Shown here piece by piece: positions 6,638-58,729 of a stretch of 64,000 bases of DNA. The DNA comes from Pseudomonas alkylphenolica (GTDB lineage Bacteria > Pseudomonadota > Gammaproteobacteria > Pseudomonadales > Pseudomonadaceae), in NCBI RefSeq assembly GCF_004025535.1, contig NZ_QJRG01000044.1:186001-250000 (forward strand). Direction: 5' to 3'. The notes beneath the pieces were generated by a model, which saw only the letters and a list, made by a program, of their open reading frames with translations, was not told the DNA's origin and did not search any database. A program made the position numbers and the translations under genes. Positions within the stretch are counted from its first letter, which is position 1, and the number at the start of each line of letters is the position of its first letter.

Positions 6638-6665
6638 CTTGTAATTGAACTTGGCGACCTCATGT
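6638..6665 (+). promoter_or_regulatory. Putative sigma32 heat-shock promoter of groESL
   Basis: CTTGTAA, 13 bp, then CCTCATGT: close to the heat-shock consensus (CTTGAAA / CCCCATNT) with normal spacing. It lies 145-170 bp upstream of the groES start and after the fxsA terminator. Confidence 0.65.
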
Positions 6666-6671
6666 AGGGGT

Positions 6672-6809
6672 TACCGCAAGGTTTCCAGGGGTTTGCCCTG
6701 GACATTACATGGGTAGTTCGCACAGCGAGCTACGAGCGGCTACGCCGCAAGCATCAACCCGCCGGTGTCGATACCGGCCGATGAAAACCACAATTAGGAG
6801 AGATCGACA
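6672..6809 (+). other. Long structured 5' leader of groES mRNA
   Basis: About 135 bases between the predicted heat-shock start point and the groES ATG. It has at least two evident stems (CCAGGGGTTTGCCCTGG at about 6687; CGGCTACGCCG at about 6736) and ends with AGGAGA 7 bp before the ATG. It codes for nothing recognisable. Whether it acts on translation or stability cannot be judged from sequence. Confidence 0.4.
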
Positions 6810-57002: not shown

Positions 57003-57203
57003 TCAGGACTCGTCGGCTTTGAGTTCTTTCTCGATCTTTTGCAGTTCCTGGGCGAACGCCTGGTCATGAATAGTGGCGCGCTTGCGCCAAGGCTTACGCT
57101 CCGGGTCCGGTTGGGCGGCGTAGGTGGTGACTTCCCCGCCGTAAACTTCCTTGTAACGTTGTTCCTGGCGCTCAAGTTCCGCGCGCAGTTCGTCTTTCGT
57201 CAC
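57003..57203 (-). CDS. Small charged hypothetical protein (66 aa)
   Basis: A 66-residue highly charged, helical protein starting [23 protein letters not shown] and ending in [16 protein letters not shown] at 57203 is preceded by AGGTAG. No membrane segment and no family recognised. The central [14 protein letters not shown] segment is basic. It is transcribed alone on the minus strand. Confidence 0.65.
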
Positions 57204-57621
57204 AGTGCTACCTGTTGGTTGTGAATAAACTCCGGCGTTAACACGTGAGGACGCTGTGCACCGGCACAAGTTACACGTGGCTACGCTGCCAGAGCGGCAT
57301 GACTGTCGCAGCAACAGTAGGTTCTTAATAGGCAAGTCATTACGAGTGACTGAGCACTCTATGTGACCAGACTTGCAGTGGGTCAGTTCCCGAAAACACT
57401 TCAGGCAAGTGCAGGTTGGATCCTACAACGGCCTGCAAGGCATTGGGTACTGAACTTTATTATAGCAAGCAAGTTTAATCACTGTGCCAATCAATATTGT
57501 TTGCTAAATGACAACAAAGGTTGGCTTTTGTTACACGACTGTTAATGCTGGTGAACAGGTGCGTGGCGCATGTGTCGGCCATGCAGCGTTGTCAGGCGCC
57601 AGGCAATAAAGCCGGAGGAGG

Positions 57622-57712
57622 AAAAAACGGCCTCGCTTCGGGGGCAAGGCCGTGCCTGGGACTTCTACGGTGGGTACCTGACCAGTCTCTCCAAGAAGCC
57701 ACATAGTGGCGG
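57622..57712 (-). ncRNA. Candidate small RNA divergent from pcaR
   Basis: A complete minus-strand unit of about 90 nt: a sigma70-like promoter at 57719-57746, start near 57712, and an intrinsic terminator whose stem CGGCCT / AGGCCG (57628-57633 with 57647-57652) is followed by six T. The RNA body has a 5' stem (CCGCCACTATGTGGC, near the start) and no ORF with a ribosome site. The sequence is not one I can name. The ends are predicted to within a few bases. Confidence 0.6.
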
Positions 57713-57718
57713 TGGAAA

Positions 57719-57746
57719 GGTATAAGCAATTGAGGGTAGCGGTCAA
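57719..57746 (-). promoter_or_regulatory. Promoter of candidate sRNA
   Basis: On the minus strand TTGACC, 16 bp, TATACC: -35 5/6 and -10 4/6 against consensus. The -35 abuts the first PcaR box (57747-57761), so PcaR binding could block or aid it. Confidence 0.55.
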
Positions 57747-57780
57747 TTGCGATTATCGGTCGTTGGTTCGATAATCGCCC
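57747..57780 (+). promoter_or_regulatory. Paired PcaR boxes and promoter of pcaR
   Basis: TTGCGATTATCGGTC (reverse orientation) and GTTCGATAATCGCCC (57766-57780), centres 19 bp apart. They resemble the PcaR site described for P. putida pcaIJ. A promoter fits exactly inside them: TTGCGA, 17 bp, GATAAT. PcaR would thus cover its own promoter, giving autorepression. Confidence 0.65.
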
Positions 57781-57805
57781 CAGAGACTGTGTGCCGAGGT
57801 AAGCC

Positions 57806-58681
57806 ATGACAGAAGATACAACGCCCAAAGGGCCCGGATTGAACGATCAGGTGCGCACGTCGTTTGCGTCGCTGGCGCCGCCCATCGTCGCATCACCGGC
57901 CAGGCGTATCCAGGCGTTTACCGGTGATCCCGATTTCATGACCTCGCTGGCCCGTGGCCTGGCAGTGGTCCAGGCCTTTCAGGAGCGCAAGCGGCATCTG
58001 ACCATTGCCCAGATCAGCCACCGCACGGAAATTCCCCGTGCGGCCGTTCGTCGTTGCCTGCATACCTTGATCAAGCTGGGGTATGCCACCACTGACGGGC
58101 GCACCTATTCGCTGCTGCCCAAGGTCCTGACCCTGGGCCATGCCTACCTGTCGTCGACCCCTCTGGCGGTGTCGGCCCAGCCCTACCTGGACCGTATGAG
58201 CGATCAGTTGCACGAAGCCTGCAACATGGCCACCCTCGAGGGCGACGACATCCTTTATATAGCCCGCTCGGCTACCGTCCAGCGCCTGATCTCCGTGGAC
58301 CTCTCGGTAGGCGGCCGGCTGCCGGCCTACTGCACGTCCATGGGCCGGATTCTGCTGGCCGCGCTGGACGATGCGACCTTGCACGAATACCTCGAGCATG
58401 CCGACCTGCAGGCCAAGACCAGCCGCACCATCCACGACCCGGTGGCGCTGCTCGAATGCCTGCAGCAAGTGCGTCAGCAAGGCTGGTGTGTGGTCGACCA
58501 GGAACTGGAGCAGGGCCTGCGTTCAATTGCCGTGCCGGTCTACGACGCGTCCGGGCAGGTGCTGGCTGCCTTGAACGTCAGTACCCATGCCGGCCGGGTC
58601 AGCCGCACCGAACTGGAACAACGCTTTTTGCCGATCATGCTCGCCGCCAGCCGCGACCTGAGTGCCCAGTTGTTTATCTGA
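57806..58681 (+). CDS. pcaR: IclR-family regulator PcaR
   Basis: A 291-residue IclR regulator. The winged helix begins near residue 48 (LARGLAVVQAFQERKRHLTIAQISHRTEIPRAAVRRCL has the HTH), and the effector domain follows (QLHEACNMATLEGDDILYIARS, RIPVYDASG-like end). In P. putida PcaR activates pca genes with beta-ketoadipate as inducer. Its position before pcaK, pcaIJ and pcaF, and the paired boxes at their promoters, make the assignment secure. Confidence 0.95.
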   Translation: MTEDTTPKGPGLNDQVRTSFASLAPPIVASPARRIQAFTGDPDFMTSLARGLAVVQAFQERKRHLTIAQISHRTEIPRAAVRRCLHTLIKLGYATTDGRTYSLLPKVLTLGHAYLSSTPLAVSAQPYLDRMSDQLHEACNMATLEGDDILYIARSATVQRLISVDLSVGGRLPAYCTSMGRILLAALDDATLHEYLEHADLQAKTSRTIHDPVALLECLQQVRQQGWCVVDQELEQGLRSIAVPVYDASGQVLAALNVSTHAGRVSRTELEQRFLPIMLAASRDLSAQLFI

Positions 58682-58695
58682 TATAGCGCATTCCT

Positions 58696-58729
58696 GTTCG
58701 ATAAACGCACAGAGTTGCGTTTATCGAAT
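58696..58729 (+). promoter_or_regulatory. Paired PcaR boxes upstream of pcaK
   Basis: GTTCGATAAACGCAC (58696-58710) and TTGCGTTTATCGAAT (58715-58729), inverted relative to each other, centres 19 bp apart, the same spacing as at pcaR and pcaI. They lie about 240 bp upstream of the pcaK ATG, 15 bp after pcaR. Confidence 0.65.

Follow-up and report, generated by a model that had tools for sequence, protein, structure and literature searches.

A candidate small RNA gene divergent from pcaR in Pseudomonas has a conserved core complementary to the sdhC leader

What is encoded back to back with the regulator gene pcaR in Pseudomonas alkylphenolica, and which mRNA might it act on? The first-pass annotation of the window (the whole stretch of DNA that was analysed, 64,000 nt of contig NZ_QJRG01000044.1) had proposed a small RNA (sRNA) at this position. 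The minus-strand promoter that it described, TTGACC-16-TATACC, can be read directly in the sequence, with the −35 hexamer TTGACC at 57746-57741, a 16 nt spacer at 57740-57725 and the −10 hexamer TATACC at 57724-57719. The same is true of its GC stem followed by TTTTTT, which forms an intrinsic terminator (57622-57653, minus strand) with a 10 bp stem (57653-57627) and a T6 run (57627-57622). With the start estimated from the −10 hexamer (approximately 57712) and the end from the T-tract, the gene occupies 57622-57712 on the minus strand and is approximately 91 nt long. Covariance model R1, described below, matches its own genome at the same place (G000, contig C26, 243623-243712, minus strand, which is 57623-57712 in the window). 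The expected body of about 90 nt was therefore found, but it is not free of open reading frames: an ATG at 57704-57702 starts a frame that, in the window, extends beyond the terminator, though this frame is not conserved. No conserved coding frame was found among 54 homologues. The 30 bases before the conserved core contain no ATG in 21 of them, the remaining ATGs are distributed over three frames, and closed frames of at least 10 codons (starting with ATG, GTG or TTG) occur in 30.

Statistics on the single sequence are unremarkable. One terminator-like site was found compared to 0.8 in shuffled sequences, the fold z-score of the sRNA is −2.65, and a simple promoter scan does not report the sRNA promoter, because TATACC breaks the rule of the scan. 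Judged at the level of sequence, the candidate is not beyond chance when taken alone but is beyond chance in the comparison across genomes. A DNA search of 57 genomes gave 26 matching genomes; in 13 of them (own genome included) the alignment starts at the PcaR box and includes the terminator, in 11 (L014-L024) it is confined to the surroundings of the operator, and two (L025, L026) are weak. The covariance model was built from the 13 sequences aligned from box through terminator. Of 159 genomes of the genus, 54 have a strong match (E 1.2e-13 or better), always as a single copy; among 274 genomes of the class the own genome was the only strong match, so that strong matches are restricted to Pseudomonas among the genomes searched. 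Weak matches in three genomes of the genus (G114, G127, G159) and two of the class (G191, G353) were left out of the counts; neither the 11-base core CTGGTCAGGTA nor the PcaR half-site is present in the stretches examined from G127, G191 and G353. A search with a 12-mer pattern was too unspecific, and the operator combined with GGTCAGGTA was found in 55/159 genomes, which comprise G027, G114 and G159 and all strong ones except G101 and G113 (52 of 54). The pattern scan of named genomes returned at least 119 stretches, of which 80 were read. Among the named matches listed, sRNA loci belong to Pseudomonas putida, entomophila, fulva, syringae, viridiflava, gingeri, graminis and others. Two further records, labelled Pantoea sp. 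(Cy-639 and Ap-967; L265, L267), bear the Pseudomonas locus with pcaR and are probably mislabelled.

The operator, TTGACC, a −10 hexamer and a T-run are retained in all 54 strong loci, which strongly supports the proposal of a small RNA gene at the PcaR operator, conserved here in 54/159 genomes of the genus. The conservation of promoter and T-tract that had been named as a check was found in 54/54, and a hairpin below −8 kcal/mol in 52/54. The latter count may be due to the rule for delimiting the T-run, which shortened two sequences (L155, L170) to 77 bases; both were left out of the alignment, which contains 48 of the 50 distinct sRNAs. RNAalifold analysis of these 48 aligned sRNAs shows changes on both sides of the terminator stem pairs. 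The −10 hexamer is TATACC in 51 of the 54 homologues and TATACT, TATACA or TATAAC in one each; the promoter spacer is 16 nt long in 10 and 15 nt long in 44.

The divergent gene (57806-58681, plus strand) is identified as pcaR by the model TIGR02431 pcaR_pcaU (351.3 bits, cut-off 284.75) and is followed by pcaK, whose score with the PcaK model exceeds the cut-off of that model. Among the matches listed, pcaR is divergent from the sRNA in all 80 named loci. A PcaR-type operator, the inverted repeat GCGATTATCG-N10-CGATAATCGC at 57778-57749, is common to both promoters, and its distal half-site (57766-57780, plus strand) agrees in 14 of 15 letters with the PcaR operator GTTCGATAATCGCAC given in an excerpt of a published reporter study (PMC12455658). 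The repeat has a gap of 10 in 54/54 strong loci, with AATTGACC directly behind it. Two details of the original description had to be changed. The box adjoins the −35 hexamer as described, but two bases (AA) intervene where the hexamer was said to end at the box; the pcaR promoter, placed beyond the boxes, in fact overlaps the same inverted repeat (TTGCGA-17-GATAAT, 57747-57775, plus strand). A further perfect PcaR-like inverted repeat, TTCGATAAACGCA-CAGAGT-TGCGTTTATCGAA, is located in the gap between pcaR and pcaK (58697-58728).

The sRNA promoter has a PcaR-type operator, which is the sequence criterion for the PcaR regulon. Since this promoter is only 2 nt away from the operator, PcaR most likely controls the sRNA together with pcaR. 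The position of the box upstream of the −35 hexamer suggests activation once inducer is bound; inducer-bound PcaR would then activate the sRNA and repress pcaR, where the box overlaps both hexamers. It is less probable, though worth weighing, that the sRNA exists and pairs with sdhC as described below, while the promoter is constitutive and the operator serves pcaR autoregulation only. The 11 loci that align around the operator only have lost both CGCAATTGACC and the core (11/11) and still retain the operator upstream of pcaR (11/11, single changes allowed), which is therefore maintained for pcaR anyway, and the −35 hexamer sits 2 nt outside the repeat. Yet binding of a protein so close (2 nt) to a −35 hexamer would be expected to affect the promoter, and the distance between box and hexamer is constant (CGATAA(T/C)CGCAATTGACC at the −35 in 54/54 strong homologues) although spacer and body vary. 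According to the excerpted reporter study, PcaR acts as repressor or activator depending on the position of the box and activates from upstream boxes (PMC12455658).

The longest run that is invariant over the 54 strong sRNAs is the 16-mer CTGGTCAGGTACCCAC (57685-57670, minus strand). It lies in an 18 nt core, ACTGGTCAGGTACCCACC (57669-57686, minus strand), that is exactly antisense to the leader of sdhC. A predicted stem of the left arm GGCTTCT (57694-57700) and the right arm AGAAGTC (57660-57666), both on the minus strand, presents the core in its loop. Such an enclosing stem of at least five pairs is predicted in 54/54 sRNAs, with letters differing between species (GGCTTCT/AGAAGTC, GGCGTCTT/AAGATGCC and GGTTTTCCGG/CCGGAAAATC). 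Shuffled flanks also reach at least five enclosing pairs in 71.5% of cases; the count alone is therefore a weak control, and the stem rests on its energy (mean −8.0 versus −4.8 for shuffled flanks) and on the compensatory changes. The core stem was folded sequence by sequence, since RNAalifold, which resolved the terminator, misses it owing to a shift of the left arm in the MAFFT alignment. The RNA of approximately 91 nt would consist of a hairpin exposing the invariant 16 nt in its loop, followed by the intrinsic terminator.

The own genome contains two exact copies of a 17-mer around the core, one in the sRNA and the other, reverse-complemented, in the sdhC leader; sdhC heads the order sdhC-sdhD-sdhA opposite gltA (names from translated frames). 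In each of six genomes examined, the exact 16-mer occurs at these two places and nowhere else. It is not unique in every genome, as G110 has a third exact copy, inside a 290-codon frame and in sense orientation. By chance, an exact match of a given 16-mer is expected approximately 0.003 times in 6.2 Mb at even base composition. Altogether, 23 inexact sites (1-2 mismatches) were found in the six genomes. Of the 16 that were examined none lies in an sdhC leader, and 15 fall within a frame of at least 100 codons on one of the two strands; at one of these (L361) the covering frame is on the opposite strand only and a sense frame is located 259 nt downstream, and at another site (L360) no frame of at least 100 codons was reported. 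Further targets beyond sdhC are possible.

Counted from the sdhC start codon, the target stretch lies approximately 60 to 43 nt upstream; in 52 leaders its end is 42-46 nt before the start. Pairs of sRNA and leader were read in 53 of the 54 strong genomes (the leader of G101 was left out). Contiguous Watson-Crick pairing extends over 18 nt in 38 of them, 17 nt in nine, 19 nt in four, and 16 nt and 20 nt in one each. The base just after the 16-mer varies. In antisense notation, a leader T at this position accompanies an sRNA T in six of 10 genomes and is absent from the 43 genomes whose sRNA has another base (Fisher p 9e-6, without correction for kinship). The four other genomes with T in the sRNA retain C in the leader, which gives a G-U pair, and a true mismatch at this position is present in 5 of the 53 pairs, in genomes with G in the sRNA. 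Cofolding points to a possible second pairing block, CCCAGG (57655-57660, minus strand; CCTGGG in the leader), which overlaps the right stem arm by one base (the first of the block, the last of the arm). In G003 and G165 both sides of the block differ: the leader reads CTGAAT (CCTGGG in most genomes) and the sRNA TTCAAGG (CCCAGG-like in most). Across 11 pairs, one involving a degenerate homologue, full-length cofolding was computed to gain −11.5 to −30.4 kcal/mol. One could argue that the likeness of the 16-mers is a coincidence at the DNA level or a shared protein-binding site without any function as RNA, as a single exact match is conceivable among many intergenic elements. We consider this very improbable: 53/53 genomes keep the reverse complement relative to transcription, with co-varying edges, and the 16-mer is found in a predicted stem loop before a terminator.

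From its sequence, the element has its own promoter, a Rho-independent terminator, no conserved frame and a conserved complementarity to a distant mRNA, all properties expected of a trans-encoded base-pairing sRNA. The preferred reading is that of a trans-acting sRNA, divergent from pcaR, co-controlled by PcaR and base-pairing with the sdhCDAB mRNA, which we regard as probable. The claim is narrow, with one 16 nt core and one leader.

Leaders were also compared between genomes with and without the sRNA. The leader core reads CCCAC in 53/53 genomes with the sRNA. In 92 of the 105 genomes without a strong match, it is CCCAC in 16, CCCAT in 15 and ACCAC, AGCAC or CTCAC in 61; among the 13 left out, G013 and G028 read CCCCT. 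On a tree of 36 sdh regions, three independent contrasts fall on starred branches, with 2.7 going the same way and 0 the opposite way (p at least 0.25). The pattern fits relaxed constraint on the leader after loss of the sRNA, short of proof. Some genomes without a strong match keep the motif too, so the leader must be under a degree of constraint that is independent of the sRNA. Degenerate homologues were observed at the PcaR operator of G027 (L025, below the model threshold), G114 (L183) and G159 (L185). Those of G027 and G114 retain 14 and 13 contiguous pairs with the sdhC leader, and that of G159 retains GGTCAGGTACTCAT, with a leader reading GGTCAGGTACCCAT. The three keep little beyond part of the stretch complementary to sdhC, which suggests that this part outlasts the rest of the RNA.

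Pairing of the loop with the sdhCDAB mRNA would alter translation or stability, either by blocking ribosome access or by recruiting RNases. Repression of sdh is modestly favoured over activation, because known sdh-directed sRNAs repress and because no consistent opening of the ribosome-binding site was predicted. Activation would follow an anti-antisense scheme: the leader stretch ACCUGACCAG would pair with the Shine-Dalgarno (SD) region (UUAGGGG), and the sRNA would free the SD and raise succinate dehydrogenase (SDH) during aromatic degradation. We see this as possible but doubtful. Flux through the beta-ketoadipate pathway needs SDH, in some leaders the SD is predicted to pair with the target stretch, with blocking of the target lowering this pairing from 1.00 to 0.85 in G018 and from 0.98 to 0.81 in G026 (33 of 36 leaders covered), and with the target bound the ribosome-binding site is predicted to become easier to reach in 12 of 52 leaders. 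Against this, the SD of the own genome is predicted to be hardly paired with the target stretch (0.02), and of the 52 leaders 35 are neutral and five become harder to reach. In most of the leaders read (L062-L097), the SD is part of a small hairpin that recurs in the form GCCCU-N6/7-AGGGGC. The hairpin suggests control of sdhC translation within the leader itself, also where the sRNA is absent.

A gene for a protein of 66 amino acids is located further downstream on the same strand (57003-57203, minus), and the element could in principle be an attenuator or riboswitch-like leader of this gene. By its motif, the protein was identified downstream in 64 of the 80 named loci among the matches listed, and 11 of the 80 have fewer than 900 bases of downstream sequence. 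Among these same matches, however, core and protein motif are 218 to 729 nt apart and a −10-like sequence intervenes in 58/80; moreover, the conserved part matches the sdhC leader and not the downstream gene. With a distance neither fixed nor short and a −10-like element in between, this reading was rejected as highly unlikely. In the window, TATAAT is present at 57459-57464 (minus strand), downstream of the sRNA terminator and ahead of the 66-aa gene. This points to a promoter of its own for the gene, with a leader of roughly 250 nt. The sequence CGCTATAATGCACCTCAGTG is present in loci without the sRNA (L014, L016, L019, L022).

The Rfam search that had been suggested as a check returned no known family at the locus at gathering and permissive thresholds, the best matches in 57400-58000 being far below threshold, and none in the homologous loci L028, L013, L025 and L008. 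The only Rfam match in the window is Pseudomon-groES (RF01721) at 6664-6778 (plus strand; 78 bits, gathering threshold 50). In the titles and abstract beginnings of the open literature among the matches listed (subscription papers and supplements lie outside this scope), neither an sRNA at pcaR nor an sdhC-directed sRNA of this kind was found for Pseudomonas. The gene beside pcaR is apparently previously undescribed. The sRNA of PMC7324555 belongs to another locus (PP_5401/PP_5402), and "pCAR" there denotes a plasmid. Excerpts report that knockouts of four sRNAs sped up the breakdown of 4-hydroxybenzoate and ferulate in Pseudomonas sp. CFA (PMC7652996), and that sRNAs of P. putida KT2440 and M2 were sequenced on glucose, p-coumarate and both (PMC10617552). 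Given such data sets, the RNA may already sit unnamed in a transcript list.

OxyS/oxyR, GcvB/gcvA and SgrS/sgrR are known cases of an sRNA encoded back to back with the gene of its controlling transcription factor. The pcaR-linked sRNA resembles them in being divergent from a regulator gene, with its own promoter and an intrinsic terminator; it differs in that the regulator is PcaR, of the IclR family and aromatic catabolism, and in having no Rfam family. It is likely, from sequence comparison, a regulator-divergent base-pairing sRNA with sdh mRNA as its main target. RyhB, Spot 42, RybB and PrrF are sdh-directed sRNAs; they respond to iron, glucose or envelope signals. The putative target, succinate dehydrogenase mRNA, is shared with these four and, as an excerpted source describes, with BrrF of Burkholderia cenocepacia. 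Unlike these five, the pcaR-linked sRNA is tied to a PcaR operator and has no Rfam match, and it is predicted to pair with the leader from about −60 to −43 through an unbroken run of 16-20 base pairs. CrcZ and CrcY, according to the excerpt, are likewise small RNAs tying carbon source to regulation in Pseudomonas putida, but they titrate Hfq/Crc via repeated AANAANAA motifs (PMC10617552), whereas the pcaR-linked sRNA has one antisense core.

The original annotation had spoken of a link between catabolism and post-transcriptional control, and the conserved core antisense to the sdhC leader gives this idea content. The beta-ketoadipate pathway ends in succinate, succinyl-CoA and acetyl-CoA, and the effect of the sRNA would couple this pathway to succinate dehydrogenase. 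If this is true, the pathway has a direct post-transcriptional line to a central enzyme of the TCA cycle, and the balance of aromatic breakdown versus the fate of the succinate it yields becomes testable in Pseudomonas. Succinate as well as beta-ketoadipate is reported, in the excerpted E. coli reporter study, to act on a PcaR, which bears the locus tag PP_3015 (PMC12455658). Should the local PcaR also sense succinate, the substrate of SDH would set the amount of SDH via the sRNA, a feedback loop that we put forward tentatively. The tag PP_3015 differs from the one that we take to belong to pcaR of this cluster, and the PcaR of the reporter study is possibly another protein. The sequence comparison suggests that, via the pcaR-linked sRNA, the central TCA cycle is adjusted when plant aromatics are degraded; this would be relevant for lignin-converting P. 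putida strains engineered in pca genes and carbon flux. If the feedback loop is true, a regulator of aromatic catabolism would double as a governor of the TCA cycle in Pseudomonas of the putida, syringae, fulva and gingeri types.
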